Shown: positions 34,904-50,583 of the stretch, piece by piece
Layout of the letters: each line of letters begins with the position of its first letter
Numbering within the stretch: position 1 is the stretch's first letter
Assembly (NCBI RefSeq): GCF_000799565.1
Contig: NZ_JUHB01000001.1
Coordinates: 2,235,501-2,299,500 of the forward strand
Reading direction: 5' to 3'
DNA: 64,000 bases
From: Cellulophaga sp. Hel_I_12
GTDB lineage: Bacteria > Bacteroidota > Bacteroidia > Flavobacteriales > Flavobacteriaceae
Notes under the pieces: model-generated
The model's database searches: none
What the model was told of the DNA's origin: nothing
The model's input: the letters and a program-made list of their open reading frames with translations, nothing else
Program-made: the position numbers and the translations under genes

Positions 34904-36466
34904 ATGAATAACATGAAAATAATACCTAAAATTTTAAGTAGTGTACTACTTTTTATAGGGTTCGTTGTAACCAGCCAAACCCTACCGCAAGCTATTGCCA
35001 AAATCAACACCGAAGGCTTTCAAAAGTCGCAGGTCATGAATTTGATTACCGACTTATCTGATGTGTATGGGCCTAGGTTAACAGGAACCCATCAATATTT
35101 TACTGCTGCCGAATGGGCAAAGAAAACCATGGAAAATTGGGGCATGGACAAAGCGTATTATGAAAATTATTGTGATGATTGTATGGGTTGGGAAGTAACA
35201 TCTTTCAATGTAGAAATGACCACACCTGCCTATATGAAAATACAAGCCTATCCGTATGCCTGGACTGAAAGCTCGAATGGGGTGCAAATTGGTGATTTAA
35301 TTTGGATTGAAAATTATGCCGATTTAGAAAAGGTAAAACAACAATGGAGCGGAAAATTAAAAGGAAAGAGTATTCTGATAGGATCTGCACCAGAACAAAA
35401 TATGTTGTTTACCGCCCTTTCAAACCGATTTACAGAAGCACAAATTAAGGAAGCTGAAAAATCAATTGAACCTGTACCAAATAATCCTTTAGGACCAACT
35501 GCTGGAGATATGAATTTAATTGAGGATTTAGAGGTGATTTTCGATAGTTTTATGAGAAAAGACGATGCCTTTTTCACTTTCTTAAAAGCAGAAGGCGCTT
35601 TAAGTATTCTAGGAACAACACCCTTTTTTCCTGGTGTAATTCATCCTAGTGGAACTTACAATTTTAGAGAAAAACATGTAAAGCCTTTGCCCTATTTTGC
35701 CATAGCACCAGAAAGTTTTGGAAAATTAAAACGCTTGAAGGAAAGAGGTATTACACCGAAAATTAAATTCCATTTAGACTCTGAATTGTATTTAACACCA
35801 AAAAATAATGTTAATATTCTAGCAGAAATAACAGGTTCAGACCCAAAATTAAAAGACGAAGTGGTGATGATCGGTGCCCATTTTGATTCTTGGCATTCGG
35901 CATCTGGTGCAACAGATAATGGTGCAGGTTCAGCCGTGATGATGGAAGTGATGCGCATTATAAAAGCTTCTGGATTAAAACCAAAACGAACCATTAGAAT
36001 GGCACTTTGGGGTGGCGAAGAGCAAGGCTATTTGGGCTCCATGGCTTATGCAGAAAATCATTACGGAAAAGTAAAGGAAACGACTCGAAAAAAAGAAGTG
36101 GAGAAAATTTCGGCCTATATCAATATGGATAATGGCGCTGGACAAATGCGAGGCATTTATTTACAGGGAAATGAAGGGGTTAAATCTATTTTTGAAGATA
36201 TGTTGGCTCCTTATGCGCATTTAGATGTAAACAACCTCACCATTCAAAACACAAATTTTACAGATCATGATGTTTTTGATTATTATAAAATCCCTGGATT
36301 TCAAATCATTCAAGATCCCTTAAATTATAGTACTGTTACCCATCATACCAATTTAGATGCTTTAGAATATGTCCCAGAACGAGACATGATGATAAATGCA
36401 ACAGTTATAGCTGCATTGGTGTATCAAATTGCACAGTTAGATGCTCGATTGCCGAGAGAAGAATAG
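34904..36466 (+). CDS. M28 family metallopeptidase (exported)
   Basis: 520 residues; Met4 is an equally plausible start. Signal peptide ends near VVTSQ. After an N-terminal segment with a PA-like part come the M28 zinc ligands GAHFDSWHSASG, ATDNGAGS and WGGEEQGYLGS, then a distal His in VTHHTNLDALEY. Related to carboxypeptidase-Q-like M28 enzymes, which are dipeptidases. Differs from the M28 gene at 28817 throughout, so it is not a recent duplicate. It follows the RidA lipoprotein by 41 bp. Confidence 0.92.
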   Translation: MNNMKIIPKILSSVLLFIGFVVTSQTLPQAIAKINTEGFQKSQVMNLITDLSDVYGPRLTGTHQYFTAAEWAKKTMENWGMDKAYYENYCDDCMGWEVTSFNVEMTTPAYMKIQAYPYAWTESSNGVQIGDLIWIENYADLEKVKQQWSGKLKGKSILIGSAPEQNMLFTALSNRFTEAQIKEAEKSIEPVPNNPLGPTAGDMNLIEDLEVIFDSFMRKDDAFFTFLKAEGALSILGTTPFFPGVIHPSGTYNFREKHVKPLPYFAIAPESFGKLKRLKERGITPKIKFHLDSELYLTPKNNVNILAEITGSDPKLKDEVVMIGAHFDSWHSASGATDNGAGSAVMMEVMRIIKASGLKPKRTIRMALWGGEEQGYLGSMAYAENHYGKVKETTRKKEVEKISAYINMDNGAGQMRGIYLQGNEGVKSIFEDMLAPYAHLDVNNLTIQNTNFTDHDVFDYYKIPGFQIIQDPLNYSTVTHHTNLDALEYVPERDMMINATVIAALVYQIAQLDARLPREE

Positions 36467-37605: not shown

Positions 37606-37628
37606 ACCAATAACGAGATTTTTATTGA

Positions 37629-37722
37629 TAAAATTCTTCCGTTATCGAAACCCAATTTTGCAAAGCAAAATCAAAGGTCAAGCAGACCTTTGGTGAAGAT
37701 CGCCGCTTGCGGAGGAACTAAA
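37629..37722 (+). repeat. Repeated palindromic leader of the DUF6090 array (copy 1)
   Basis: About 95 bp that recurs at 41145-41232 with few differences. It contains two palindromes: ATTTTGC-aaa-GCAAAAT and CAAAGGTC-aagca-GACCTTTG. Its 5' end (TTGATAAAATTCTTCCG) resembles the start of a DUF6090 gene, so the element seems to derive from, or have captured, a truncated DUF6090 5' end. It lies directly in front of an intact DUF6090 gene. Confidence 0.6.
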
Positions 37723-37736
37723 TGAAAAATAAAGCT

Positions 37737-38498
37737 ATGATAAAGTTTTTTAGAAGAATTAGATACAACTTGCTCAACGAAGGCAAAACCTCCAAGTATT
37801 TTAAATATGCCATCGGCGAAATTGTGCTTGTGGTGATTGGGATTTTGATTGCCCTACAGATAAATAATTGGAACTCTTTGCAAAACGATAGGGAAATAGA
37901 ACAATCAGCACTGAAAAACTTAAAAACCGAGTTCGAAGAAAATCTTGAGCAACTGAGCATTGACAACGACCTAAATCAAGCCTCCTTAGATGCAGCTTAT
38001 TCTCTATTGCAATCAGAGAGAATCACGTATCAAAGCAATAGAGTAGATAGTCTTCTTGGCACTGCATTAAATTACGCGACATTTGAAGCTGGAACGGGTG
38101 TTTTTGATGAAGCAATCTCTTCAGGAAAAATGAGATTGATACAGAATGATAGTTTGAAAACGCTATTGAGTAAGTGGAAGGGGAAATTAAACGAATTAGG
38201 AGAAGACGAAATAATAAGGCGAGATCATATCATTCACAATGTCTCTCCTTTATTTAGAAGGTACATACCCTATAGAAATTTTGATAGGGCATATGATAGA
38301 AAGGATTATGTGAGGCATCAACGAATAGAACCTATAGAAATTTTAACTACTAATTACGAGAAGTTCTTTCAATCGTTAGAAGTTGATGGTGCTCTATATG
38401 AGATGTACCTAAATCAGTCCTATATACACAGTATCTCTGTAGCCCTAGAAAACTATATTGAAGAGGTATTGAAATTATTAAACAAAAACATTGAATAG
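37737..38498 (+). CDS. DUF6090 family protein (array member 1)
   Basis: 253 residues from the MIKFF start shared by the paralogues; an ATG 15 bp upstream is possible. The N-terminal ~45 residues are the family hallmark: basic MIKFFRRIRYNLL, then KYFKYAIGEIVLVVIGIL and LIALQINNWN, one membrane helix. Positive-inside reasoning puts the C-terminal ~205 residues in the periplasm. That part is helical, with the motif FDEAISSGKMRLIQNDSL in a region aligned in most copies. Function unknown. First of eight tandem copies. Confidence 0.88.
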   Translation: MIKFFRRIRYNLLNEGKTSKYFKYAIGEIVLVVIGILIALQINNWNSLQNDREIEQSALKNLKTEFEENLEQLSIDNDLNQASLDAAYSLLQSERITYQSNRVDSLLGTALNYATFEAGTGVFDEAISSGKMRLIQNDSLKTLLSKWKGKLNELGEDEIIRRDHIIHNVSPLFRRYIPYRNFDRAYDRKDYVRHQRIEPIEILTTNYEKFFQSLEVDGALYEMYLNQSYIHSISVALENYIEEVLKLLNKNIE

Positions 38499-38517
38499 TT
38501 GACTAAACATTAGCCAA

Positions 38518-39576
38518 ATGATTAAATTCTTTAGAAAAATTAGACAGAACCTTTTATCGGAGGGCAAAACCCTGAAGTATTTTAAGTATGCCGTTGGCGA
38601 AATTATCCTCGTGGTTATTGGGATTCTCATTGCACTACAAGTCAATAACTGGAATGAAGAGCGCAAGAAAAAGACAGAAGTCGATCAATTATTATTAGAT
38701 ATTGAACAGGATTTGATAAGTAATTATAAGGCCACCAACTTCACAATAGATTTTTATCGTAAACAAGACTCTCTTACACGTCTTATAGCAGAGAAGAAAC
38801 TTACTGAAGAAGATTACAACGCCAATTATAATCTCAGGTATTTAGTGTCAAATTGGGAATATTTAATCCCTAAAGAAAAAAATATCAATCAGTTTGTAGA
38901 ATCAGAAAAGATAGTTAATGCAGAATATAAACCTATAATAGAAGCAATAAAGGATATACAGTATAATAAGTTTGCGCTAGACGATACATGGTCTAACCTA
39001 GATGAAAATATTGAAAATAATGGAAAAACCTTATTCGTTTTTAATTGGTTTGTTAAAAATGACTCGGTATCTAACGCAAAGGCCATAGACTATTTTCTTA
39101 ATGATGAAAGTTATGAAACACTAGCTTTAGCTTACTGGGCAAGGGTTCAAAATTATTACGACAAGGTTACACGCTACAGAGCACAAACCATGGCGACGCT
39201 TGCCACCATCAAAAGAATTAAATATGCTTATAGTAGCAAAGCTATTATCGAGTTATTTCAGCAATACAATATGCAAGCTTTTGTAAACTATCGTTGTGAT
39301 GTAAAGTCACCTAAACTCATGAATTTAAAAAAACGTCGCGCCAGTGAATTGTATGCCAATTTTACTCACAAGACTGTGCATTTAACCATTACTAATAATC
39401 TTAGCCAACCTGTTGCCAAAATAGAAATCACACCAAATACCTTTAGAACCATCCCATCTTGAGGCTATTTTGGTTTAGATGGGGATAATAATAATCTGGT
39501 TAAAGTAATAGATGAAAATGGTAATTGTATAAATGCCTATGGCGCCGTAGAAAATGGTTATATGATAATTGAATAA
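38518..39576 (+). pseudogene. DUF6090 family gene with in-frame TGA (array member 2)
   Basis: The first stop is TGA at 39460-39462, giving 314 residues. The same frame then continues without a stop to TAA at 39574-39576, and the extra 37 residues (GYFGLDGDNNNLVKVIDENG, then NCINAYGAVENG) look like the proper end of a beta-rich C-terminal domain begun upstream by VHLTITNN. So the stop is probably a recent nonsense mutation, or is read through. The N-terminus is standard (MIKFFRKIRQNLLSEGKT). This copy is the longest and lacks the FxxLxSxG motif of the others, so it represents a distinct subtype. Confidence 0.65.
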
Positions 39577-39583
39577 AAATATA

Positions 39584-40372
39584 ATGATAAAATTTTTTAG
39601 ACATATCCGCAAAAACCTGCTCAACGAGGGCAAGACCACGAAGTACTTTAAATACGCCATTGGCGAAATCATTTTGGTAGTCATTGGCATTCTCATTGCC
39701 CTTCAGATTAATAATTGGAATGAGAACAGAAAAGCAAATCAATTAGAAACTAATTTTTTTAACAATGTGCTTTTAGACCTTCAAAAAGATGAAGAAAAAC
39801 TTCACTATTATAAAAATTTTCACACCAAGAGAATTGAATATTTAGACACTTTGTTAACGTATGTTAGAAACCCAAACAAAACCATGGGTATTGATAAATT
39901 TGGCATGTATGTAGAACCATTGTTCTATGCAACAGACCCAACAAATTATAACATCACCTTTGAATCTGCTAAATCTTTAGGCACCTTCAACAACTTTAAA
40001 GAGAAAGAACTTTTAAAAGATCTTTCAGAATATTATGCAGACTTTACTTTAATTGAAAAATCCTTTAGCTCTATTTTACGATTTATTGAAAATCGATTTG
40101 AGCCTATAATGTATACGCTTCCCGAAAATTATATGAATGAAAATACTGGCAATTTGGTTATAAACGAAGAAAGCGTTCAGGAATTTTATAATAAAGTAGC
40201 ATCTATAGAAGATTATCGAGGGATTACTGCAGACTATGAAACAATATTAAGAACCCCCAAAATGGAAAATTATTTAATTGGTGATATGGGAAGAACCTTT
40301 GGAGCAATTAACATCATATCTGCTAGACAACACATGCTAAATCAATTACTAGAGAAAATTAAAAACCAATGA
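39584..40372 (+). CDS. DUF6090 family protein (array member 3)
   Basis: 262 residues starting at MIKFFRHIRKNLLNEGKT, seven bases after the extended frame of member 2. The membrane segment GEIILVVIGILIALQINN is followed by a helical periplasmic part rich in Leu/Glu with ITFESAKSLGTFNNFKEKEL in the place of the usual FxxLxSxG motif. Its stop overlaps the start of the next copy (ATGA), implying coupled translation. Confidence 0.88.
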   Translation: MIKFFRHIRKNLLNEGKTTKYFKYAIGEIILVVIGILIALQINNWNENRKANQLETNFFNNVLLDLQKDEEKLHYYKNFHTKRIEYLDTLLTYVRNPNKTMGIDKFGMYVEPLFYATDPTNYNITFESAKSLGTFNNFKEKELLKDLSEYYADFTLIEKSFSSILRFIENRFEPIMYTLPENYMNENTGNLVINEESVQEFYNKVASIEDYRGITADYETILRTPKMENYLIGDMGRTFGAINIISARQHMLNQLLEKIKNQ

Positions 40373-41142
40373 TAAAATTCTTTAGAAAAATTAGGAAACA
40401 ACTGCTCACAGAAAATAAGTTCAATAAATATGTATTGTACGCCATTGGCGAAATCATCCTCGTGGTGATCGGGATTTTGATTGCATTACAGATTAATAAT
40501 TGGAATGAGGAACGTAAAGAAAACAAACAAGAGCGTTTTATACTTCAAAAATTACTAAATGATCTTAATTCTGATATAGCTGACATTGATAATCAAATTA
40601 GTGTAAGCAAATCGAATTTATTAGATTTTAAGGAGGCTGCAAACATTCTATTAAATAATGAAGTGGGAGATATTAATACTTTCAATGATAAAATTAGTAA
40701 CGTTTTAAATATTAGTGGTTTCAATCAAAAAAATACCACATTTAGTAATCTAATATCCACAGGAAAAATAGAACTGATAAAAAATCAAGCATTATCGGAT
40801 TCTATCGTTATTTATTATAATAGTGATTATGCTAGTTGGGACACAGCTATGAAAGATTATACTAGAAATATAATTGCACCCTACTTGCTTAAATTTGACC
40901 ATATACCCGAAGTGGATTATAAAAGTGACGAACGCTTTTTGAATAAAGACTATTCGGCTATGGACATATCAAAATCTGATGTAATTCCCAAATCTTTAAA
41001 TAATTACAAACAAGATGTGTTTTTTAGCAATATCCTACGTCAAAAAATCAGAATTTTAGAAGGTCAGAATAGTTCCTATCAGAATTTACGAACCATAATG
41101 TATTCTTTAGTATCCCAAATTAAAAAAGAATTAAATGATTAA
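40369..41142 (+). CDS. DUF6090 family protein (array member 4)
   Basis: 257 residues, MIKFFRKIRKQLLTENKFNK; lacks the GKTxKYFK variant, having NKFNKYVLYAIGEI. The C-terminal domain carries TTFSNLISTGKIELIKNQAL and a coiled-coil stretch. Start overlaps the previous stop by four bases. Immediately after the stop, an out-of-frame ATGATTAAATTCTTTC marks the beginning of a truncated extra copy and of the repeated leader. Confidence 0.88.
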   Translation: MIKFFRKIRKQLLTENKFNKYVLYAIGEIILVVIGILIALQINNWNEERKENKQERFILQKLLNDLNSDIADIDNQISVSKSNLLDFKEAANILLNNEVGDINTFNDKISNVLNISGFNQKNTTFSNLISTGKIELIKNQALSDSIVIYYNSDYASWDTAMKDYTRNIIAPYLLKFDHIPEVDYKSDERFLNKDYSAMDISKSDVIPKSLNNYKQDVFFSNILRQKIRILEGQNSSYQNLRTIMYSLVSQIKKELND

Positions 41143-41232
41143 ATTCTTTCATTATCGAAACACAATTTTGTAAAGCAAAATCAAAGGTCTAGCAGACCTT
41201 TGATGAAGATAGCCGCATGCCGACAAACTAAA
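41133..41232 (+). repeat. Truncated DUF6090 start plus repeated palindromic leader (copy 2)
   Basis: ATGATTAAATTCTTTC at 41136 would encode MIKFF and reaches a stop after 12 codons (MIKFFHYRNTIL). From ~41145 on the sequence matches 37629-37722. The second hairpin is perfect here: CAAAGGTCT-agc-AGACCTTTG. Together with copy 1 it shows that the array has duplicated segments including leader DNA. Confidence 0.6.
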
Positions 41233-41247
41233 TGATAAAATAAAACT

Positions 41248-41982
41248 ATGATAAAGTTTTTCAGAAATATCAGACGAAACCTCATGGAAAGAGGGAGAAC
41301 AGGTAAATACCTTAAATACGCCATTGGCGAAATTGTACTTGTGGTCATTGGTATTTTAATTGCTTTATCGATCAATAATTGGAATGATGCTAGAAAAGAT
41401 AGGGTTGCTGAAAAAGAACTTTATAGAACGCTCATAAAAAGCCTTGAAAGCGACTTGGAAGATGTTCGTGCAAAATCTATGATTTTAGACACTGCACTCA
41501 CCGCACAAAGAATATTTATCACCGAATCGTTAACGGAGATACAATCTAAGTTTACGGGCGAAGAGATTTATAGGATGATTTGGCAATTGGGCAATACTAG
41601 TTACTCCTTTGTTCCAAACGTTTCATTATACACGAAAATTTCCCAAAACCAACAAATAGACTTGATACAGTCTGATACTTTGCAAAAAAAAATAATGGAC
41701 CTGTTTGAAGTGCATTACTGGGAGTATAAAGATTTGGATACCACCCTAGAACGTCTGGCACAAGAAGGGTTGATCAGTAACTTTTTTGGAGATATTGCGC
41801 ATTTAGTTATCAAAAATCAGTGGGAAATAGATGATGCAGCATTACAACAACAATTTGGTGAATTAAACAAGGACTGTCGTAAAATATATTTTCTATCAAC
41901 GTCCGTCAAAAAATCGATGCTAAACTGCGAAAACAAAATAGAAACGCTTTTGCCTTTATTAAAAGAGGAGCTTAACAAATGA
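41248..41982 (+). CDS. DUF6090 family protein (array member 5)
   Basis: 244 residues, MIKFFRNIRRNLMERGRTGK, then GEIVLVVIGILIALSINNWN. The C-terminal part is more divergent (VSLYTKISQNQQIDLIQSDTL) and includes a Lys/Cys-containing tail. It follows leader copy 2. No signal other than the N-terminal anchor. Confidence 0.88.
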   Translation: MIKFFRNIRRNLMERGRTGKYLKYAIGEIVLVVIGILIALSINNWNDARKDRVAEKELYRTLIKSLESDLEDVRAKSMILDTALTAQRIFITESLTEIQSKFTGEEIYRMIWQLGNTSYSFVPNVSLYTKISQNQQIDLIQSDTLQKKIMDLFEVHYWEYKDLDTTLERLAQEGLISNFFGDIAHLVIKNQWEIDDAALQQQFGELNKDCRKIYFLSTSVKKSMLNCENKIETLLPLLKEELNK

Positions 41983-42083
41983 ACTAAAATCAATTAACAG
42001 GTACACGGTGAATAGCAATTCTTAGAGTTTACCAATACCTATTGTAAGACGACCAACATAACTACCCAAACAAAGCATGAAAC

Positions 42084-42839
42084 ATGATTAAATTTTTTCG
42101 TAAAATCCGCCAAAATCTTCTTTCAGAAGGCAAAACCGCGAAATACTTCAAATACGCTATGGGCGAAATTATCCTCGTGGTCATCGGTATTTTAATTGCG
42201 CTTCAAATTAACAATTGGAACGAAGAAAAAAAGTATCAAAAACAATTACATATAAAAGTGCATTCTATTTTGGGAGATATCCGTGAAGATGCGTTACAAA
42301 TTAAAGCGCTCCTTAAGGACCTGGAGAAACAGCATAGTGCAGCCGACCATATCATACCCATTATGGAATCTGAACAAAAAGCCATAGTAGATTCCTTAAA
42401 ATTTATTCTCGATTTCAATTCCTTTACCACTACCCCAATCTTATCACAACAAAATAATACTTGGGATTATCTAAGCGCAAACGGTATCCTATCAGAATTG
42501 GAAGACCAAGAATTGGTGAACTTGTTAATGAACTATTACAATTACTTTGACGAGCTCACCATTAACTTTAACAACTCTGCCAACCCTGTACGATTAGAAC
42601 TGAGAGAGCTGAAATACGAACTTTTTACAAATACCGAACATCGCAAATTTTTTCCCACAAAGAAACCCAGCGTTCCTAGTAAGGCAGTTTATGAATCTAT
42701 TTTTAACGATATTCGGATTTTACCCTTGTGCAGATATATAGGGAGTACAGCGGCTTATTTTGAAGGAAGGTTTAAAGATGTCGATCAAAAAGCTGAAAAG
42801 ATTATTTACTATTTAGAAACGAATTACCAACCTATTTGA
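42084..42839 (+). CDS. DUF6090 family protein (array member 6)
   Basis: 251 residues, MIKFFRKIRQNLLSEGKTAK, membrane segment GEIILVVIGILIALQINN. The periplasmic part has NNTWDYLSANGILSELEDQEL at the shared motif position. The gap from member 5 is about 100 bp, with no recognisable gene. It overlaps a possible TTG start of member 7 and ends three bases before that copy's ATG. Confidence 0.88.
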   Translation: MIKFFRKIRQNLLSEGKTAKYFKYAMGEIILVVIGILIALQINNWNEEKKYQKQLHIKVHSILGDIREDALQIKALLKDLEKQHSAADHIIPIMESEQKAIVDSLKFILDFNSFTTTPILSQQNNTWDYLSANGILSELEDQELVNLLMNYYNYFDELTINFNNSANPVRLELRELKYELFTNTEHRKFFPTKKPSVPSKAVYESIFNDIRILPLCRYIGSTAAYFEGRFKDVDQKAEKIIYYLETNYQPI

Positions 42840-42841
42840 TT

Positions 42842-43603
42842 ATGATAAAGTTCTTCCGTAACATCCGTCAAAAACTACATATGCAAAACAAATTCAATAA
42901 GTACTTACTTTATGCCCTTGGCGAAATTATCCTCGTGGTTATCGGTATTTTGATTGCGTTAAGCATAAACAATTGGAATGAGGCTGAAAAAGACCATAAA
43001 CTAGAACACGTATTTCTTCTTAAATTAAAATCTAATCTTAAAGCAGATATTGCTCTTTATAAGGATAGGATTGAAAAAAATACGCTAAATAACCATCATT
43101 TAGATAGCAGTTTAACCATACTTAAAAATTATAAATCGCATACTACGGTAGAACTTCAAGAACACTTGAGATTCATTTTCTTTTTTCATCGCTTTAATCC
43201 AAATAAAACCACGTTTGACAATTTGGTGTCCAGTGGTAGATTAAATATAATTAGAAACGACTCATTAACAGAATCACTCTTTTTATATTACAGATTAATT
43301 TCTCAACAACAAGAGAGTCTTGCCGAAAGTATTGATGATTACAGTAGAAACACCATGGGCCCTGCACTACTGGAATTCGATTTCATAGATAATTCATTGG
43401 ACTATACCTTAAAACCTATAAAATCTTCTTTTGGGGTAAAACCCATTGAATCTTATGTTGAAAATCCGAAAATCGTGAATTCCATTTCCTATAAAATTTT
43501 ATTTGTCGATGTTATTGTGAGGGCTTACACTAGTCAAATTACAAAAGCAGAAAGCATTATTGATCTTATAGATAATGAACTAATGCCAACAAATTATGAT
43601 TAA
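42842..43603 (+). CDS. DUF6090 family protein (array member 7)
   Basis: 253 residues, MIKFFRNIRQKLHMQNKFNK, resembling member 4 in the NKFNKYLLYALGEI variant. Shared motif KTTFDNLVSSGRLNIIRNDSL. Starts two bases after member 6. The ATG of the following relic lies inside its last codons (43596), as with members 3 and 4. Confidence 0.88.
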   Translation: MIKFFRNIRQKLHMQNKFNKYLLYALGEIILVVIGILIALSINNWNEAEKDHKLEHVFLLKLKSNLKADIALYKDRIEKNTLNNHHLDSSLTILKNYKSHTTVELQEHLRFIFFFHRFNPNKTTFDNLVSSGRLNIIRNDSLTESLFLYYRLISQQQESLAESIDDYSRNTMGPALLEFDFIDNSLDYTLKPIKSSFGVKPIESYVENPKIVNSISYKILFVDVIVRAYTSQITKAESIIDLIDNELMPTNYD

Positions 43604-43843
43604 ATTCTTTCGTAGAATTCACCAAAACCTGCTCAATCAAGGTAAAACCTCCAAGTACTTTAAATACGCCAATGGCAAAATTGTGCTGGTAGTGATTGGG
43701 GCTTATTACAGAAAGGCGGAGTAAAACAGGCAGACGGTTTAGAAGACCAATTGGAACAACTAGAGGCTCAACTTGCCCAAATGAAAAATCTGATAAAAAA
43801 AACAGTAGAAGCATTGGAAAAGCATATAAATCATAACTATTAA
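43596..43843 (+). pseudogene. DUF6090 relic fused out of frame to a coiled-coil tail
   Basis: Begins ATGATTAAATTCTTTCG and encodes MIKFFRRIHQNLL, then SKYFKYANGKIVLVVIG before ending at TAA 43722-43724. From the GIG position the sequence continues in another frame as LLQKGGVKQADGLEDQLEQL, then EAQLAQMKNLIKK, to a stop at 43841-43843. The tail is a heptad-like coiled coil unlike other array members. It looks like a deletion that joined a DUF6090 start to the end of a different small gene. Confidence 0.6.
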
Positions 43844-43911
43844 CGGAGCTATAAAAATGGGCTAACAACCTAAATTCAATCCCTTTAAACAAAACAGTAT
43901 AAAACAACAAA

Positions 43912-44025
43912 ATGGAAACACAAGAAATTATTTACCTCGTAGCCTTTGCCCTGATATTGCGCATTGTGGTACGCCTTATTTTTAGATTTAGAAAGGAGCA
44001 AAAAGCAAAAAAAAATAATGATTAA
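43912..44025 (+). CDS. 37-residue single-span membrane peptide
   Basis: METQEIIYLVAFALILRIVV, followed by RLIFRFRKEQKAKKNND. One hydrophobic helix and a strongly basic C-terminal tail, so the tail should be cytoplasmic. The stop overlaps the start of DUF6090 member 8 by eight bases (44018-44025), suggesting translational coupling. Too short for confident homology. Alternatively it is a leader peptide for the downstream gene. Confidence 0.5.
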   Translation: METQEIIYLVAFALILRIVVRLIFRFRKEQKAKKNND

Positions 44026-44749
44026 ATTCTTTCGAAAAATCCGTCAAAACCTCATCATGGAAAATAAAATTTCCAAATACTTTAAATATGCCATAGGCGA
44101 AATTGTGCTTGTGGTTATTGGTATTCTCATTGCCCTACAGATTAATAATTGGAATGAGAACCGTAAGTCGAGAACAACTGAAACTTATGTTTTAAATGAA
44201 ATTTTGAGTAATCTAAATGAAGATGCTGCTATTTTAAATGATATCATTAATCAGAGATACATAACAAAAGCTTCAGTAGCAAATATGCTTGGCTATCTAC
44301 AGAAAGAAAACATTAGTAAAGATTCCTTAGAAAAGGATATGGTGAACTTTTTAACCTTTGAGCGGTACTTTCCTATCAACAACGCCTATGAAATTCTAAA
44401 GTCTAAAGGGTTACAGCTTTCTAATAATAATCTTACATCCAAAATATCTCGTTATTATGATTACGAACAGAAAAAGATGAACAGAAGTATTTTAGATGTA
44501 GAAAATGCTATTCTTAGTATTTTGGAAGACTCCTCGGGAATCCCTCGATTTATAGAATCTCTCGCCTTAAACAAAAACGTATCGATTATTGATTATAACA
44601 ATCCTGATTTAAAAAAGGAACTCTATAGGGAGATTGTTCCGTTTAAAAACAATAACATAGGAACATTAAATACATTAATTGTGTTTCAAAATCTTAATCA
44701 AGCCCTTAGAAAGGAAATTGAAAAAGAGCTTAAATTATCAGATAAGTAG
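44018..44749 (+). CDS. DUF6090 family protein (array member 8)
   Basis: 243 residues, MIKFFRKIRQNLIMENKISK, membrane segment GEIVLVVIGILIALQINN. The periplasmic part carries NAYEILKSKGLQLSNNNL at the shared motif. A longer in-frame start at 43964 would overlap the small membrane-peptide gene and is not favoured, since every paralogue begins at MIKFF. Last intact copy before the tRNA-integrated element. Confidence 0.88.
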   Translation: MIKFFRKIRQNLIMENKISKYFKYAIGEIVLVVIGILIALQINNWNENRKSRTTETYVLNEILSNLNEDAAILNDIINQRYITKASVANMLGYLQKENISKDSLEKDMVNFLTFERYFPINNAYEILKSKGLQLSNNNLTSKISRYYDYEQKKMNRSILDVENAILSILEDSSGIPRFIESLALNKNVSIIDYNNPDLKKELYREIVPFKNNNIGTLNTLIVFQNLNQALRKEIEKELKLSDK

Positions 44750-44751
44750 CT

Positions 44752-44882
44752 ATGATAAAACTCTTCCCAAACATTAGGGAAAATCATCTCAAAAAAGGCC
44801 AGCCTGCCAGGCAGGCAAGTACTTTAAATACGCCATAGGTGAAATAATACTTACGGATATTGAGATTTTGATGGCGTTATAG
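44752..44882 (+). pseudogene. Decayed DUF6090 relic with palindromic insertion
   Basis: Starts ATGATAAAACTCTTCCC (MIKLFPNIRENHLKK), two bases after member 8. It is then interrupted by a GC-rich 15-bp palindrome GCCTGCCAGGCAGGC at 44802-44816, after which the frame shifts. The shifted frame reads GKYFKYAIGEIILTDIEIL and stops at 44880-44882. The relic is clearly the N-terminus of a ninth or tenth family member. Confidence 0.65.
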
Positions 44883-45006
44883 GTAAGCAATCAGGATTAG
44901 AATAAGCTAAAGCACTAAAGAAATGAAAATAAAATTATGAGGTTAAATGTCAAAAAAAATAAAAAGTTCTAAAGTGTGCACATACTATGTCTTACAAAAA
45001 ACAAAA

Positions 45007-45030
45007 AAACCTTCACAGATGTGAAGGTTT
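45007..45030 (-). terminator. Original terminator of the tRNA-Ala gene
   Basis: Inverted repeat AAACCTTCACA / TGTGAAGGTTT; on the minus strand a T-rich tract (TTTTTTTG) follows. It lies just beyond the tRNA 3' fragment at 45039-45083, so before insertion of the element it ended the tRNA-Ala transcript. The intact tRNA now uses the element-supplied hairpin at 58064. Confidence 0.65.
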
Positions 45031-45038
45031 ATGTTTAT

Positions 45039-45083
<45 letters not shown>

Positions 45084-45187
45084 CAAGGGGTATTGACAAC
45101 TTTTCATGATTAAAATATATCATAACTTATTGATAATCATTTATTTAATAAATTTTGATTTCATTTGATATTAATTAAAATCACTAA

Positions 45188-45211
45188 TTTGCGTGCAAAT
45201 TGCGTGCAAAT
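45188..45211. repeat. Tandem TTGCGTGCAAAT repeat, integrase-end arm
   Basis: Two copies of TTGCGTGCAAAT in tandem (24 bp with the leading T), identical and same orientation as 58033-58056 near the other end of the element. Each unit is a TTGC-GT-GCAA near-palindrome. Good candidates for arm-type integrase or excisionase binding sites. The copy here overlaps the region just before the integrase ATG and may also regulate it. Confidence 0.6.
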
Positions 45212-45231
45212 TTTTATTACCTTTAAATTCT

Positions 45232-46449
45232 ATGAACACCAATGTAAAACTTTCTTTAGATACACGAAGGCGAAAAAAGGACAAATCTTTTCCAATAATT
45301 TTAAGGTTAAGCCATTTACGAAAAACAACATCAATAAGTTTGGGTCAATCTGTCCAGAACGAATATTGGGATGATAAGAACGAGAAAATCAAAAGAGCTT
45401 TTAAAGGAACTTCATCAACTAGTAAATTGAATAATCAATTATTAAAAGAAAAGACAAGGGCGACTGATATTATAAATGCTCTATATGAGAAGGATGAACT
45501 TAATTTTTTGTCAATTAAACAACTAAAAAGAAAAATAGTCAAAACTGCTTCTTTTGACTCTTTTATGGCATATAGTGTCGAAATAGTTGAAGAAATGAAA
45601 CTTGCAGAGCGTTATGGCAATGCAAATACTTATCATTCCATAGTAAAAGTGTTACAATTATTTAATAATGGAAATGATATTAAATTTAATGAAGTCAATT
45701 ACGACTTTCTTAAAAGGTTTGAGACCTGGCACTTTTCCAGAGGAAATTCTATTAACGGACTTTCGGCCTATATGAGAACAATAAAAGCTATTTTTAATAA
45801 AGCTATTAAAAGTGAAATTGTATCAAGCGAAGCGTATCCTTTCACTAACTACAGAATTAAAACAGCACCCACTGAAAAAAGAGCAATAGATGCCAAAAGC
45901 ATGAAATCTATAATGATTTTGCATTTAGATGAAACGAATGGATTATTTCATTATAGAAATTTCTTTTTAGCTTCTTATATGCTTTATGGCATTTCGTTTA
46001 TGGACTTAGCTTTTTTGAAGGTTGAAAACATAATAGACAATCGTATAAAGTTTCAGAGAAAGAAGACGCATAGACCATATGATATTAATATAACACCTCA
46101 ATTAAATGAATTACTTTCCTATTACCTTAACAATAAAGAAAAGTCTGAATTTATATTTCCTATAATTAAAAGAGAAACTTTTGAGTTGCAATACAAAGAT
46201 GTAATATGGGAAAGAAAAAGGTATAATAAGGGACTGAAAGAGATTGCTACTAAATGTGGTATAGAACAAAGACTGACTTCTTATGTCTCTCGTCATAGTT
46301 TTGCCACTCAAGCAATGTTACAAGATGTACCTCTGCAAGCAATTTCAGCTATGCTAGGACATAATCGACTGTCAACCACTCAAATATATCTTAAGTCTTT
46401 GCCTAACAATATTTTGGATGGTTATAATAAAAAGTTAGTTGACCTTTAA
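45232..46449 (+). CDS. Tyrosine-type site-specific integrase
   Basis: 405 residues from ATG 45232; an upstream GTG at 45193 would run through the arm repeat. N-terminal Arm-DNA-binding domain (KLSLDTRRRKKDKSFPI), a SAM-like core-binding domain near residues 95-200, then the catalytic domain: YVSRHSFATQAML (Arg and His region), LGHNRLSTTQIYLKSL (His, Arg and nucleophile Tyr). At the first catalytic arginine position the sequence reads MLYGISFMD, without the Arg found in many relatives; IntDOT of Bacteroides also lacks it. It recombines the element into the tRNA-Ala site, adjacent to the distal attachment repeat. Confidence 0.92.
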   Translation: MNTNVKLSLDTRRRKKDKSFPIILRLSHLRKTTSISLGQSVQNEYWDDKNEKIKRAFKGTSSTSKLNNQLLKEKTRATDIINALYEKDELNFLSIKQLKRKIVKTASFDSFMAYSVEIVEEMKLAERYGNANTYHSIVKVLQLFNNGNDIKFNEVNYDFLKRFETWHFSRGNSINGLSAYMRTIKAIFNKAIKSEIVSSEAYPFTNYRIKTAPTEKRAIDAKSMKSIMILHLDETNGLFHYRNFFLASYMLYGISFMDLAFLKVENIIDNRIKFQRKKTHRPYDINITPQLNELLSYYLNNKEKSEFIFPIIKRETFELQYKDVIWERKRYNKGLKEIATKCGIEQRLTSYVSRHSFATQAMLQDVPLQAISAMLGHNRLSTTQIYLKSLPNNILDGYNKKLVDL

Positions 46450-46474
46450 AGACAATTTTACAGGTATTGTTTTA

Positions 46475-47605
46475 TTACAAACTGTCCTTAAATAAATTGA
46501 CATAGTCTTTAAAAATATATAACCGCCCTCTTTGACCACCAGTAATCTCACCTAAAATATCTAGTTGCTCTAATGATGCTATTAATTTATATGCGGAAAC
46601 ATTAGATTTTTGAATTATTTTTTCTACTCGGTTTACGTCAATTACTGGATTGGAATATAGTCCTTCTATTACTAAACGGGCATCCACACTTCTGTTTCCC
46701 AATGTTTTTAATTTAATATCCAGTGCCTTTTGCAACTGCATAATACTATTGAATGTAGTTACTCCTGACTTTGATGTTTCAATAACACCGCTCAAAAAAA
46801 ACTTAAACCATTGAGAAAGATCATTATGTGTTCTTACACGCATCAAATTATCATAATAAAGCATTCTATTTTTTTCAAAAAAGTCCGATAAATATAAAAT
46901 AGGCTGTTTTAAAATTCCCTTACTTACCAGATATAATGTAATTAGTAACCTTCCAACCCTTCCATTTCCATCCAAAAAAGGATGTATAGTTTCAAATTGG
47001 TAATGAATTAATGCTATTTTCAAAAGATCAGGCAAATGGTTGAGTTCGTCATTGGCAAATTTTTCGATATCCGACATTAAATCGTTTATAGAATTATGGA
47101 TTGGAGGAATAAATACAGCATCATTAATTGTGGCACCACCGATCCAGTTTTGACTTGTTCTGTATTCTCCAGGTAGTTTGTTTTGTCCTCTTACTCCTTG
47201 TAATAATATCTTATGAGTCTGCTTAATAAGTCTGGATGAAAATGGAAGTCGATGTAACATTTTTACTGCTTCATTCATAGCAGCAATGTAATTTTGGACT
47301 TCTTCCCAATCGTCTCTTTTTTCTAATGAAATTTCGTCTTTTTTGAGAAAAGCTTCTTCCATATTTGTTTGGGTGCCTTCTATCTTAGAGGATTGAGTAG
47401 CCTCTTTCGCAATATGCATACTAATGAATAACTCAATGTTAACATATTCCGAATACATATCCAATCTTCCTAACTGCCTATCCGCCTTGCTTAATAGTGA
47501 AAGCACTTCCATATCATCAACTTGCCATTGTTTATGAATTGAATTTGGTTGAAAACTTTTATAATATCCCTGACTAATATGTATACCAGAAACGAAATTT
47601 TTCAT
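46475..47605 (-). CDS. Fic family protein with self-inhibitory motif
   Basis: 376 residues. Fic core HPFLDGNGRVGR at 208-219 transfers AMP (or another nucleotide) to target hydroxyls. An N-terminal inhibitory helix SSKIEG (residues 72-77) fits the class II (S/T)xxxE(G/N) motif, so the enzyme is expected to be autoinhibited. The C-terminus is a winged-helix-like domain (KIIQKSNVSAYKLIASLEQL). Such Fic-HTH proteins are common in Bacteroidota, often on mobile elements. No antitoxin gene is adjacent. Convergent with the integrase gene, 25 bp gap. Confidence 0.92.
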   Translation of the reverse strand: MKNFVSGIHISQGYYKSFQPNSIHKQWQVDDMEVLSLLSKADRQLGRLDMYSEYVNIELFISMHIAKEATQSSKIEGTQTNMEEAFLKKDEISLEKRDDWEEVQNYIAAMNEAVKMLHRLPFSSRLIKQTHKILLQGVRGQNKLPGEYRTSQNWIGGATINDAVFIPPIHNSINDLMSDIEKFANDELNHLPDLLKIALIHYQFETIHPFLDGNGRVGRLLITLYLVSKGILKQPILYLSDFFEKNRMLYYDNLMRVRTHNDLSQWFKFFLSGVIETSKSGVTTFNSIMQLQKALDIKLKTLGNRSVDARLVIEGLYSNPVIDVNRVEKIIQKSNVSAYKLIASLEQLDILGEITGGQRGRLYIFKDYVNLFKDSL

Positions 47606-47640
47606 AATTAATATTCTTTACTTAAATCATTGTTATTTAA

Positions 47641-47648
47641 CAAATATA
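47641..47648 (-). promoter_or_regulatory. Putative fic gene -7 element (TAnnTTTG type)
   Basis: TATATTTG on the minus strand, 35 bp before the Fic start, an exact match to the Bacteroidota -7 consensus. The two GTATTTATTTAAGTTTTT repeats lie just upstream. Confidence 0.45.
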
Positions 47649-47669
47649 CCAATTATCTTAAATAGCAGA

Positions 47670-47727
47670 GTATTTATTTAAGTTTTTGCCTTAAAAATTA
47701 AACAGCAATGTATTTATTTAAGTTTTT
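47670..47727. repeat. Two direct repeats upstream of the Fic gene
   Basis: GTATTTATTTAAGTTTTT occurs at 47670-47687 and 47710-47727, 40 bp apart (about four helical turns), each preceded by AGCA plus two bases. They lie just upstream of the candidate -7 element and could be an operator, possibly for the winged-helix part of the Fic protein itself. Confidence 0.45.
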
Positions 47728-47764
47728 ATATTTAACCCTAAATCTTACCATAACTTATCTGCGC

Positions 47765-47835
47765 TTGGATCCTGTGCGGTTTTTGTAGTGTTCAGGTAGA
47801 TAATCGTAAGCAAAAACCGCATAGGGCGCATACTA
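47765..47835. other. Candidate origin of transfer (oriT)
   Basis: Perfect 11-bp inverted repeat TGCGGTTTTTG (47775-47785) and CAAAAACCGCA (47811-47821), separated by 25 bp. It is flanked on the left by GGATCCTGT and on the right by TAGGGCGCATAC. The latter reads TATGCGCCCTA on the other strand and resembles IncQ-type nick cores; the former resembles the IncP-type ATCCTG core. It lies directly downstream of the mob gene cluster. Position and shape fit oriT; nick-strand orientation cannot be fixed. Confidence 0.35.
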
Positions 47836-47879
47836 CTTTTGATTTGGATACTTTTTTTGACTTGTATAGCTACCTTAAG

Positions 47880-48206
47880 TTATGCAAGCTTAAATATCAA
47901 ATAGCCAATAATGATCAAAGAAGTCATATACATTCCATAATGAATCCATAGCTGTATTTTCGGAACTACTTGTGATTTGGAAAGTTGCTTTTCCATTCTT
48001 TGAAAAGCTTCCTGTAATTTTTGACTTTTTTCTTTCTCTGTTCTTAGATGATCTTGAATATAATATTCAATGCCCGAAGTATCCGCTTTGATATTGATAT
48101 TATCTACGTTTTGAGTTAACTTTTCTAGCTTTTTTATGCTCTTGTTGAACCCGTCTAATTCGTCACTTAGAAGCTCCATGACTTCATCCAATTTTTTATA
48201 GCCCAT
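47880..48206 (-). CDS. Small mobilization-associated membrane protein
   Basis: 108 residues: a long coiled coil (ELLSDELDGFNKSIKKLEKL and EKEKSQKLQEAFQRMEKQL) and one C-terminal membrane helix (MTSLIIIGYLIFKLA). It starts 12 bp after the relaxase stop in the same operon. Small coiled-coil membrane proteins often follow relaxase genes in Bacteroidota mobilizable elements, where a link to the transfer machinery is assumed. No family is recognised with certainty. Confidence 0.7.
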   Translation of the reverse strand: MGYKKLDEVMELLSDELDGFNKSIKKLEKLTQNVDNINIKADTSGIEYYIQDHLRTEKEKSQKLQEAFQRMEKQLSKSQVVPKIQLWIHYGMYMTSLIIIGYLIFKLA

Positions 48207-48217
48207 AATTTCCTATT

Positions 48218-49087
48218 TTAAATTCCTATTCCTTTATCAATACTTCTTTTGATTACTTTTTTTACTAAACTCTTGGCGATACTTGCGGCAAAGTTTACTG
48301 TAAGTTCTGTTTTCTTTCCTAAAAGCTTCACTGTATTGATTGGTTTAATTTGATTTGCTATTCCTCTATTCTGGGTTAGTTGACCCATAATTCTCCCTCC
48401 AGACATTGAACGATGTACCTCGCTTGCTTTTAGATTATGACCTTTGTATTCCAATCTAAATCCTTGTAGTTTGTTTGCCTTATTAATAGTTAGAATCACT
48501 TTTACATTTTGTTGCTTCATCGCTTTGATGTAATCGTCTAAATTCTTTGGTGTTTCATTTTCCATGACTTTCTGGTGGATGTTTTTAATCTCAAAACGTA
48601 TCGGTTGAAGTGTCTTATTCTTTTCTTGTTGTACTTCCTTGACGGTGGTAAGACCCATTTCCTTAGCCACGTTTTCAGCCGCTACCTGGCTTCGTTTTCC
48701 GATAAAGCTATCATTGTATGCTTTTCCATCAAAACCTATTCTATTAACATATAAATGCACATGGGTATGTGCTTTATCTCTATGAACAAAAGCAATAGCC
48801 TGTTGCTCTTTTAAATTCATTTCCCTTATGAACTTCTGAGTCAAATCTCCTAATTCTTTTTTGCTAAGCTTTTTACCCTCCTCTTGAATTGGACTTAGTA
48901 TAAAACTGAGCGTGTTCTTTTCGCATCGGACATTCTGCTCTTGAATCAATTTAAATTCATCCGTTATCTGCTGGGTAGTATCTCCTGCTATATGCTGACT
49001 AAAGACTATTTCAGCATCTTTTTCTTGATTCCATCCATAGGCTATCGATGCTTTGGTATGTGCTATAGATTTTCCTTTGCCGATCAT
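48218..49087 (-). CDS. Relaxase/mobilization nuclease
   Basis: 289 residues. The metal-binding relaxase motif HxDxxHxHxH is seen at residues 102-111 (HRDKAHTHVH), followed by LYVNR. The catalytic tyrosine is likely one of the N-terminal tyrosines (around SIAYGWN, residue 17). The family is MOBP-like or MOBQ-like; subtype is not settled. It nicks oriT and pilots the strand through a helper conjugation system. The C-terminal part is a basic domain ending SLVKKVIKRSIDK. It follows the MobC-like gene by three bases. Confidence 0.9.
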   Translation of the reverse strand: MIGKGKSIAHTKASIAYGWNQEKDAEIVFSQHIAGDTTQQITDEFKLIQEQNVRCEKNTLSFILSPIQEEGKKLSKKELGDLTQKFIREMNLKEQQAIAFVHRDKAHTHVHLYVNRIGFDGKAYNDSFIGKRSQVAAENVAKEMGLTTVKEVQQEKNKTLQPIRFEIKNIHQKVMENETPKNLDDYIKAMKQQNVKVILTINKANKLQGFRLEYKGHNLKASEVHRSMSGGRIMGQLTQNRGIANQIKPINTVKLLGKKTELTVNFAASIAKSLVKKVIKRSIDKGIGI

Positions 49088-49090
49088 GAT

Positions 49091-49387
49091 TTATTTTTTG
49101 AAGTTGTATAAATGACTGCGGATTTGTTCTGCCACATCTGCAACCTCGCTCGCTAGTTTTGGATTTCGCTTTTTAAACATATTACGAATGCTGGTAAAGT
49201 TATTTTTATACTTAACGAGCATTCTATAATGCGCTAACTGTTCAGGAGTCAAACGTTCAATGACTAAATTTTCAAAAGCCGAATTACGACAGTATTCAGA
49301 AAGTGATATTCCTGCTCGTGCTGCTCGTTTTTTAAGTAGTTTCTTTTCGTAAATAGAGCATCTAAATTTGATATACGTCTTCTTCAT
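49091..49387 (-). CDS. MobC-like relaxosome accessory protein
   Basis: 98 residues, basic. The pattern KFRCSIYEKKLLKKRAARAG, then SLSEYCRNSAF, is a ribbon-helix-helix-like DNA-binding start as in BmgB/MobC accessory proteins, which bind oriT and assist strand separation. The start overlaps the primase-like gene's stop (ATGA, 49384-49387) and the stop lies three bases before the relaxase start, so translation is coupled. Confidence 0.85.
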   Translation of the reverse strand: MKKTYIKFRCSIYEKKLLKKRAARAGISLSEYCRNSAFENLVIERLTPEQLAHYRMLVKYKNNFTSIRNMFKKRNPKLASEVADVAEQIRSHLYNFKK

Positions 49388-50358
49388 TTTTTATTTTCTT
49401 TGCAACCATCGGGCGTAAAGCAAGTTTGTTTTTGTGGCAACAAAAACACATCTTGCGCCTTATGACTAATTCCCTTTTTAGCACAATGAATCAGCCATTC
49501 GTTCATATCTTTGAATCCGTCATAAAGCTTTGATTTGTCTTTGAATTTGTTAGATACTTTAAGTAAGTTTTCAGTGGTGAGTTTTCCATTGGAATCATTG
49601 TCTAGATAGAGGTCTACTATTTCATATTCTCTGCTTATTAATTTTACCTTTTCTAAAAAACCTATCGAGTTCATGATTAGAAAGTCATATTCAGATATTA
49701 GTTTTTTGTTTATTTCAGTTAGGGATAGTATGTCAAACATCCCTTCTGTAATCAGTAGCTTTGAATGACCTTTTTTAATTGAGGTCATATCCTTTGGAGA
49801 ACATGAATTCTTTAAGTATTTATTCCGTAATTCCCATCCACCTGAATCATTTTGTAATCCAATAGCGAAATAGTTTTTCCCTTTAACTTGGTAATGGACT
49901 TCTTTGACCAATTCCTTTGCTTTTTCTATGGATATGCCTCTTACTTTTAAATATTGCGCTAAGGCTGGATGTTTTAGTTCCTTGACTTTTAAAATAGTTA
50001 TTGTGTGATTTGTTTCTAATTCCTGTACTTCCTCTTTTAAAATAGGGTGCTGTTGAAGAAAAAAAGAAGTTTCCATTTGTTCTTTAATAAACGCTAATGC
50101 ACTCTTTACAGAACATGGCTTAATTTGACAAATCAGATTAATAACATTTCCCCCGATTCCCTCTCCATGGTCGTACCATCTATTTAGTTTCTTGCACACC
50201 TTGAAAGAGGCTTGGGTTTCTGAGCGCAGCGGACTTAAAAACCAAGCTTCTTTATCCGTTTCTCTGGTCGGAAAGTGCCCAAGTTTTGCCAGCGCTTTTT
50301 CGATGGGAAAAGCTCGGGCTCTTTCACACGATAGTCCTGTTGTTCTTTTTTTTTTCAT
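49384..50358 (-). CDS. Toprim domain primase-like protein
   Basis: 324 residues. The N-terminal half resembles the CHC2 zinc-finger fold of primases in layout (FLSPLRSETQASFKVCKKLN, WYDHGEGIGGNVINL) but lacks the Cys-His-Cys ligands. The C-terminal Toprim domain shows LLITEGMFDILSL (catalytic Glu) and DLYLDNDSNGK (DxD). It would synthesise primers or assist replication of the excised element. The gene heads the mob operon and is preceded by the TAGGTA-rich repeat cluster. Confidence 0.85.
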   Translation of the reverse strand: MKKKRTTGLSCERARAFPIEKALAKLGHFPTRETDKEAWFLSPLRSETQASFKVCKKLNRWYDHGEGIGGNVINLICQIKPCSVKSALAFIKEQMETSFFLQQHPILKEEVQELETNHTITILKVKELKHPALAQYLKVRGISIEKAKELVKEVHYQVKGKNYFAIGLQNDSGGWELRNKYLKNSCSPKDMTSIKKGHSKLLITEGMFDILSLTEINKKLISEYDFLIMNSIGFLEKVKLISREYEIVDLYLDNDSNGKLTTENLLKVSNKFKDKSKLYDGFKDMNEWLIHCAKKGISHKAQDVFLLPQKQTCFTPDGCKENKK

Positions 50359-50582: not shown

Positions 50583-50583
50583 A

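Follow-up and report, generated by a model that had tools for sequence, protein, structure and literature searches.

The DNA analysed here, called the window, is a stretch of 64,000 nucleotides (nt) from Cellulophaga sp. Hel_I_12 (contig NZ_JUHB01000001.1, positions 2,235,501 to 2,299,500), and our subject is a tandem array of eight genes of the DUF6090 family (Pfam PF19578) within it. We conclude that this locus is probably one array of a modular family, in which C-terminal modules are exchanged between genera and joined to common N-terminal anchors by recombination in the anchors. The start codons of the eight open reading frames (ORFs) were placed at the common MIKFF. In window numbering, the features of the array are as follows, with E-values from the Pfam model, bit scores from the covariance model R1 of the leader, and mean AlphaFold2 confidence given as pLDDT where a model was computed.

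37625-37716, + strand: structured leader copy 1, upstream of gene 1; 94.5 bits, one of the sequences used to build the model.
37737-38498, + strand: DUF6090 gene 1, 253 residues; E 3.6e-11.
38518-39462, + strand: DUF6090 gene 2, 314 residues with an atypical C-terminus; E 2.3e-6, residues 28-80 only.
39584-40372, + strand: DUF6090 gene 3, 262 residues; E 8.8e-8; pLDDT 88.
40369-41142, + strand: DUF6090 gene 4, 257 residues, overlapping gene 3 by 4 nt; E 1e-12; pLDDT 90.
41135-41226, + strand: structured leader copy 2, upstream of gene 5; 103.6 bits, also a model-building sequence.
41248-41982, + strand: DUF6090 gene 5, 244 residues; E 7.7e-11.
42084-42839, + strand: DUF6090 gene 6, 251 residues; E 4.4e-8.
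42842-43603, + strand: DUF6090 gene 7, 253 residues; E 9.3e-13.
43596-43724, + strand: anchor-only remnant A, overlapping gene 7 by 8 nt; repeat copy D2, 66%; limits set by reading.
43703-43843, + strand: tail of an unrelated small gene, truncated at its 5' end and fused to remnant A; translation matches small ORFs.
44018-44749, + strand: DUF6090 gene 8, 243 residues; E 4.8e-8.
44752-44902, + strand: anchor-only remnant B, broken; repeat copy D3, 71%; limits set by reading; its anchor linker carries a GC-rich palindrome (44802-44816).

All eight genes lie in tandem on the same strand between 37737 and 44749 and score above the gathering cut-off of PF19578 (28.0-48.8 bits against 23.5; E 2.3e-6 to 9.3e-13), in agreement with a sequence-only reading of the window. 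That reading had also described a fixed N-terminus followed by a variable remainder, and this is borne out by an alignment of the eight proteins, in which 30 of the first 46 columns are invariant and full-length identity to member 1 is 26-31%. The 4-nt ATGA overlap that it placed at 40369 and the start of gene 7 two bases past gene 6 are both present. Seven of the eight genes are 243-262 codons long, the exception being gene 2. Beyond the eight genes, the array holds two copies of the 5' part alone and a 109-nt repeat of 86% identity ahead of genes 1 and 5. Gene 2 retains the anchor, and the Pfam model is unmatched past residue 80 of its 314-residue product.

The genome, 4.03 Mb in one contig, contains 11 DUF6090 matches, eight of them in the array and one of the others below the cut-off. 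Array copy number is not fixed in the genus: over 18 genomes, this one included, DUF6090 matches range from 0 to 11 per genome, with none in nine. In a sample of the family Flavobacteriaceae, 185 of 299 genomes have a match at E<=0.01 (with at most 10 candidates scored per genome), and in a sample of the phylum Bacteroidota 25 of 148 have one at E<=1e-4. One DUF6090 member matched at least 7,996 protein clusters, and the names on related proteins belong mostly to Flavobacteriaceae and other Bacteroidota. No paper in the open-licence full-text library that was searched names DUF6090.

From loci of related genomes we extracted 381 DUF6090 genes, and the 373 that encode at least 190 residues (70 genomes) form the family set used below. 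A motif of the form TFxxLxSxGxxxLIxNxxL, which had been proposed for most array members, is weak in this set, its strict form being found in 48 of the 373 proteins; what survives of it is the conservation of single columns, such as G132 in 294 of the 373.

Anchors and C-terminal parts have separate histories across this family. Nearest-neighbour tests were run on 305 genes from 43 genomes, with the 29 genes of the 373 that have a shifted membrane segment excluded. The nearest anchor by DNA was in the same genome for a fraction of 0.408, against 0.031 when labels were shuffled; with third positions only, the fraction was 0.359, against 0.071 in a simulation in which codons were redrawn per genome according to codon usage. 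For the C-terminal parts, the nearest relative was in the same genome for a fraction of 0.033. The clustering of anchors by genome also speaks for a rival explanation, namely that whole genes move between genera, as cassettes or long fragments, and that the anchor is later overwritten by gene conversion from resident paralogues.

The most informative comparisons are between genes of different genomes whose C-terminal parts are closely related. In all 10 pairs with a C-terminal synonymous divergence (dS) below 0.5, hereafter young pairs, anchor dS is more than twice as high (Fisher p<0.01 in nine), with values from 0.76 to saturated. With looser cut-offs the same is true of 12/12 pairs at dS<0.8 and 15/16 at dS<1.0. 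As a control, in no pair did the divergence of the second C-terminal half exceed twice that of the first (10/10, 12/12 and 16/16 pairs). For recA, dS ranges from 1.12 to saturated over 11 genome pairs, a set that covers the genomes of the 10 young pairs. High recA dS together with low C-terminal dS and high anchor dS indicates that the C-terminal parts moved horizontally and that the anchors did not move along with them. Thus, at the level of the family, C-terminal cassettes move between genera and are seen fused to other anchors, and most fitted junctions of young pairs are at codons 24-44 (eight of the 10 in single-breakpoint fits).

The window array itself shows no such recent event. Over the first 46 codons of its eight genes, the mean proportion of synonymous differences (pS) is 0.735, near saturation, and that of nonsynonymous differences (pN) 0.153, and for 0/11 anchors of this genome is the nearest anchor found in the same genome. 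5' ends near synonymous saturation indicate that no recent homogenisation has taken place in the array. Recent conversion of 5' ends within it, for which the sequence-only reading suggested a test, is not supported by these two results. The broader proposal of that reading, diversification by recombination, is supported across the family, though in another mode than it had in view. At invariant anchor columns of the eight genes, codon identity is 0.514, a modest excess over simulation means of 0.42-0.44.

Near-saturated 5' ends and the lack of own-genome nearest neighbours among the window anchors are what ordinary old paralogues would show, that is, genes whose anchor is kept by purifying selection on the protein, with no recombination involved. 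At family level this explanation is already contradicted: anchor dS exceeds C-terminal dS within the same gene pair in 10/10 young pairs, a mosaic gene exists (n171_G271, described below), and codon-level conservation is confined to the anchor. We consider it very improbable. Codons are conserved beyond genome usage in the anchor only, with a median effect of 0.098 over 42 columns against 0.007 over 30 C-terminal columns (Mann-Whitney p=1e-8); the C-terminal control consisted of conserved alignment columns, the set of 48 genes with the strict motif being too small. Phenylalanine 4, for example, is encoded by TTC in 73% of cases against 22% expected, and valine 32 by GTG in 46% against 16%. Such conservation would fit a recent common DNA history or retention as DNA homology, without telling the two apart.

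The evidence that concerns the window's own genes most directly comes from the homologue lists of members 4 and 3, in each of which 120 proteins were reduced to 90 and 86, respectively. Identity in the anchor and identity in the C-terminal part are correlated with Spearman coefficients of 0.01 and 0.11 for members 4 and 3, respectively, against 0.77 and 0.62 for the two C-terminal halves with each other and 0.58 and 0.60 for a control block of 20 columns. The anchor is clearly more alike only where C-terminal identity is at least 0.9 (0.81 and 0.76; 7 and 11 pairs). For 22 pairs, omega (the ratio of nonsynonymous to synonymous divergence) of the C-terminal parts is 0.05-0.27, a sign of purifying selection; C-terminal parts are thus not hypermutated copies, and would instead be old lineages re-sorted onto anchors.

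How units could be joined is suggested by individual genes. In genome G271, gene n171 directly follows gene n170. Over the last ~110 nt of n170 and, after it, the first 67 nt of n171, identity to neighbouring genes of genome G246 is 97-100%; farther back, n170 is 73-93% identical to the G246 gene. The similarity of n171 switches between nt 68 and 128; past nt 128, the segments examined are 83-100%, mostly 90-100%, identical to gene n77 of genome G283, whose own anchor differs from that of n171 (53-67% over nt 8-97). Gene n171 is a mosaic of three genomes, the trace that cassette exchange between neighbouring anchors is expected to leave. In five of nine pairs, the common DNA extends to the following anchor, in three of them well inside it and in two over its first 11 to 20 nt only.

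These joins count against transfer of whole genes followed by conversion of the anchor. In the pair n170_G271/n70_G246, the common DNA runs past the stop codon into the first codons of the next gene and stops within the membrane core of that gene, which is the pattern expected of a cassette swap, and the 5' part of n171_G271 comes with its upstream neighbour. Short inserts in the anchor speak for both explanations. In-frame inserts, mostly GC-rich and palindrome-like and mostly at about anchor residues 14-20, are present in 27/373 genes (of G246, G041, G086, G193 and other genomes). One of 14 bases occurs four times in G246, always in a DUF6090 anchor, in four genes whose C-terminal parts are unrelated (<=24 bits) and whose surrounding anchor sequence differs, an observation that counts for modular exchange and also for overwriting of resident anchors. 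Transfer of whole genes with later anchor conversion is a real possibility, if a somewhat doubtful one. A related palindrome is found six times in G086 and once in G193, and is absent from the Hel_I_12 genome and from G246. For G246 we rejected the idea that the palindromic inserts are genome-wide repeats, since the 14-mer occurs nowhere else in that genome than in the four DUF6090 anchors.

In the exchange of modules that we favour, the 5' anchor (approximately codons 1-45) would be a protein module and a common stretch of DNA at once, so that homologous recombination between anchors could make the joins and arrays could gain and lose units in the same way. The common start ATGATTAA could supply a stop to the upstream frame, whereby units would join cleanly. 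Of 217 same-strand neighbouring pairs no more than 400 nt apart, 87 overlap, most often by 8 nt (42 pairs) or 4 nt (35 pairs); in 41 of the 42 overlaps of 8 nt, the next start is this sequence, and it supplies the stop of the upstream gene. Both kinds of overlap are found in the window, that of 4 nt between genes 3 and 4 and that of 8 nt between gene 7 and remnant A. In remnant A, similarity to the anchor ends at about codon 35, where the small-gene tail begins; the junction is inside the membrane core, as are most young-pair breakpoints. In four other genomes, small ORFs close to DUF6090 genes match the translated tail (43703-43843; E 1e-6 to 2e-4). At 43912-44025 a possible membrane ORF of 37 codons, noticed by eye, runs 8 nt into gene 8, an overlap also seen between many DUF6090 genes.

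Several points weigh against modular exchange through the anchors. Firstly, the chimeras are open to another origin, as transfer of whole genes and later conversion of the anchor alone would yield the same ones. Secondly, the events are few and their limits are not always sharp. Recent transfers are few, the 10 young pairs forming eight groups when counted by shared genes. Codons 15 and 88 are the breakpoints of the two young pairs that fall outside codons 24-44. Some of the fits are weak, with likelihood gains of 3.0-27.7 over the ten pairs. Of six older pairs fitted, two have breakpoints at 24-44, and in two of the others the left side is the more similar. In 3/10 young pairs the divergence of the first C-terminal half exceeds twice that of the second, indicating that the change can extend past the anchor. 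Thirdly, among the 206 cross-genome pairs whose C-terminal parts are clearly related, 173 have anchor DNA at least as similar as C-terminal DNA, as plain conservation of the anchor would give. In the other 33 pairs anchor DNA is the less similar, and in 66 of the 206 the first 19 residues are less similar than the C-terminal residues. Since a conserved anchor alone would produce the reverse, an anchor more similar than the C-terminal part, the young pairs are the informative ones. Fourthly, the window array shows no recent event of its own, as described above, and its gene 1 and the related gene of G263 have a C-terminal dS of 1.08. Fifthly, the related-genome loci were chosen by hand from search listings, and the detection pattern forces G27, E or K28 and G35, with at least 41 DUF6090-like ORFs in 23 genomes missed; we do not cite these three positions as invariant because the pattern imposes them. 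Finally, there is no recurrent partner gene, fold relative or defence model to indicate a function.

Two genes of the window array, 1 and 5, are preceded by a structured leader. It is an element of the DUF6090 family that opens like an anchor start and has two hairpins, with compensatory changes in 4/16 pairs (17 sequences). Its covariance model gives 28 matches in 81 sources (17 genomes), all of them 16-23 nt ahead of an anchor-like start and 27 of the 28 before an annotated DUF6090 gene, a position that is partly by construction, as the model was built from 18 sequences found upstream of anchors. The two copies at the window array are the only ones in this genome at E<=0.001. Rfam has no match to the leader; its two sub-threshold matches are at 45003-45077, outside the leader. 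We would guess at a role in the control of translation or transcription. In some other genomes the leader can be read as an ORF of ~37-38 codons that ends at the start of the next gene.

To the right of the array lies a ~13-kb island (45022-58151), bounded by 67-nt tRNA-Ala repeats of 91% identity (45022-45087 and 58085-58151) and carrying genes for an integrase, Fic, DUF6730, a relaxase, Toprim and a VapE-like protein. The backbone DNA to the right of the island has a match in 18/18 genomes of the genus. A tyrosine recombinase with integrase and arm-binding domains (45193-46449) begins 0.44 kb from gene 8, and on account of this proximity and these domains it was considered as the enzyme that shuffles the array. 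It is, however, part of the tRNA-Ala island; tblastn over 94 loci around DUF6090 genes, with this recombinase as the sole query, brought up no relative at E 1e-5; and the integrases that adjoin attC-type arrays elsewhere are of another kind. We rejected it as the shuffling enzyme, a role that is scarcely credible for it. The Fic protein of the island (46475-47605) matches strongly the PADLOC model SoFic, which represents an anti-phage gene, established or candidate. On the other side, the gene adjoining the array at 34904-36466 is, by eye, a candidate M28-type peptidase. The closest relative of this gene in genome G011 sits inside an array of DUF6090 genes, and the Hel_I_12 genome carries another copy next to a lone DUF6090 gene at 2398 kb.

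A second kind of array surrounds DUF6090 genes in other genomes and lone DUF6090 genes in this one. Here we found sites of ~130 nt with paired outer and inner arms (R''/R' and L''/L') of the attC type. In 16 aligned sites with 19 pairs specified by hand, 87.5% of cells are paired, against 22-40% in slid controls, and there are 29 double changes against 12.6 in shuffled alignments (0/500 as high). Two of the five measures were unremarkable, namely pairs with change (8) and pair types (16), for which 56 and 61 of 500 shuffles were as high. A model of the site gives 240 matches at E<=0.01 in 97 sources, the 16 sites used to build it among them. In the 203 sites counted further (36 loci), strands are never mixed within a locus and the median spacing is 996 nt. 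Among 347 DUF6090 genes in the scanned loci, 16 have a site within 350 nt on both sides, 17 downstream only, 16 upstream only and 298 none; the gene-adjacent sites are on the strand of the gene in 65/65 cases.

Seventeen genomes, picked because they show attC-type sites, were screened for integrases, a match being counted as strong when its first part exceeded 100 bits. The integron-integrase model has 18 strong matches in 15 of them. Thirteen of these 18 IntI-like integrases have sites on their 3' side, on the same strand and within 2.5 kb, and one has them at 4.4 kb; of the others, one has a site on its 5' side, two are cut by a contig edge and one has no site. No genome of the 17 passed the cut-off of TIGR02249, the matches being split in two. 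Two whole integrases reach 204-207 bits against this cut-off of 265, with profile positions ~185-239 unmatched, a region that we take to be the IntI-specific patch III domain; they are narrowly above the cut-off of NF040815 ('site-specific tyrosine recombinase/integron integrase'). Passages of PMC9024848 distinguish IntI by an extra domain near the C-terminus, and one of PMC9668308 calls the patch III domain defining. As regards occurrence, the survey in PMC9024848 knew in Bacteroidetes integrases without cassettes and one complete integron (Salinibacter), and a passage of PMC8618304 lists Bacteroidota among the phyla with integrons.

This genome has attC-type arrays at ~62.6-72.2 kb and 1742.4-1749.6 kb of its contig. 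Its lone DUF6090 gene at 4018.7 kb (4018703) has an attC-type site on each side, and that at 1073.6 kb (1073611) is followed closely by a site and preceded, at a distance of 32 nt, by the right-hand site motif. In the window array such sites are absent, the sole match in the window being marginal and outside the array (57738-57811, E 0.0065). Upstream of the first leader, AACCAATAAC resembles the 5' end of a cassette in one short match; motifs of this type stand ahead of 22/348 DUF6090 genes, against 8/3480 random places. As a cassette trace at the window array, this sequence would be only a hint. Elsewhere, some DUF6090 members do reside in attC-type cassette arrays, plausibly a second route of movement. 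Such cassettes would carry whole genes, a further point in favour of whole-gene transfer with later conversion of the anchor.

What the modules do was approached through predicted structure and database searches. In the AlphaFold2 models of members 4 and 3 the helices follow almost the same order, with one at 2-14, one at 18-94/95, a series of short ones and, last, a long one. These two very different C-terminal parts are thus predicted to keep one helical fold. By the positive-inside rule a basic N-terminus stays inside. Residues 1-24 carry a mean net charge of +5.75 (344 genes), which would leave the N-terminus in the cytoplasm and the long part on the periplasmic side. In the predicted architecture, a short basic helix in the cytoplasm is followed by a single membrane helix and then by a long helical part, the last periplasmic if this topology is right. 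Foldseek of member 4 against the Protein Data Bank (PDB) and viral models gave nothing at E<=0.001, a profile search of PDB sequences gave nothing at E<=1, and VIA-align of member 3 returned generic helical bundles, including ligand domains of chemoreceptors, not above the usual level for helical bundles. PADLOC had no model match for members 1, 4 and 8, the three submitted, and none of the DUF6090 proteins scanned came near an NCBIfam cut-off. Weak matches in PHROGs were only to families of unknown function (best E 0.00076). Searches of 50,697 phage records with member 4 and of plasmids by megablast gave no match, and viral contigs scanned with a pattern from the eight-protein alignment yielded no relative. 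A phage origin of the array was rejected on the searches of the phage records with member 4 and of the viral contigs with this pattern. No neighbour family recurs within 1.5 kb of DUF6090 genes in more than eight genomes, apart from the 41 missed DUF6090-like ORFs.

The array proteins may be surface or periplasmic receptors, as the sequence-only reading inferred. Copy number varies, the genes spread horizontally, the modules compared are under purifying selection, a single fold is predicted despite the variety of sequences, and no partner gene is constant. For these reasons we suggest, tentatively, an envelope-anchored repertoire of periplasmic specificities, with immunity or exclusion factors that act on delivered toxins or phage as the likeliest kind. 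The main alternative, in which the proteins are sensors, the variable periplasmic bundle binding ligands and the common membrane helix signalling to one shared partner, we consider unlikely.

Several known systems resemble these arrays in part. In polymorphic toxins (Rhs, CDI), according to passages of PMC3482391, a constant N-terminal part is combined with a C-terminal part that is replaced by recombination, as we find here at the level of the family and not of the window array. Unlike theirs, the constant part here anchors the protein in the membrane and is only ~45 residues long, and what varies is a predicted periplasmic bundle under purifying selection; Pfam and NCBIfam scans revealed no toxin domain, and the commonest neighbour families other than DUF6090 occur in eight genomes. 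The rAID arrays of Bacteroidales, as described in a section of PMC12247911, are co-oriented, with genes of ~100-300 codons and conserved intergenic motifs. Comparable traits here are the length of seven of the eight genes (gene 2, at 314, is slightly above the range) and the leader ahead of two of them. In contrast to rAID, our array consists of one family only, without a match to an immunity family, and no recombinase family recurs within 1.5 kb of DUF6090 genes, although attC-type arrays elsewhere begin at an integrase. Homogeneous polyimmunity loci are likewise tandem paralogues of one family, but the immunity proteins there are said to be nearly all cytoplasmic and globular (both in the passages of PMC3482391 just cited), whereas DUF6090 proteins are predicted to be membrane-anchored and have no known toxin. 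What could be tested thus does not show DUF6090 arrays to belong to polymorphic toxins or rAID. With integrons, the arrays outside the window share ~130-nt sites with R''/R' and L''/L' arms, a single strand per array and, in many cases, an adjoining tyrosine recombinase; they differ in that this recombinase is below the integron-integrase cut-off with part of the model unmatched, and the window array is without sites.

Taken together, two layers of exchange may operate in Flavobacteriaceae, a view that we hold to be quite possible though short of an even chance. An integron-like platform, consisting of the ~130-nt attC-type sites and an IntI-related integrase that lacks the IntI-specific domain and faces its array, would spread DUF6090 cassettes between genera, and recombination in the anchor would re-sort the periplasmic domains and stack them into attC-free arrays, giving a transferable repertoire of envelope specificity or immunity. 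If the platforms are true integrons, they would be attC-type arrays beside an integrase that fails the integron-integrase model, in a phylum for which passages of PMC9024848 report one complete integron besides integrases without cassettes, though a passage of PMC8618304 lists it. By score all eight genes of the window are members of PF19578, whose entry describes a family of unknown function and does not mention modular exchange. DUF6090 is large and widespread in Bacteroidota, and the finding that its C-terminal parts are horizontally exchanged modules on common anchors makes of a set of hypothetical proteins a testable question, namely what these modules recognise.

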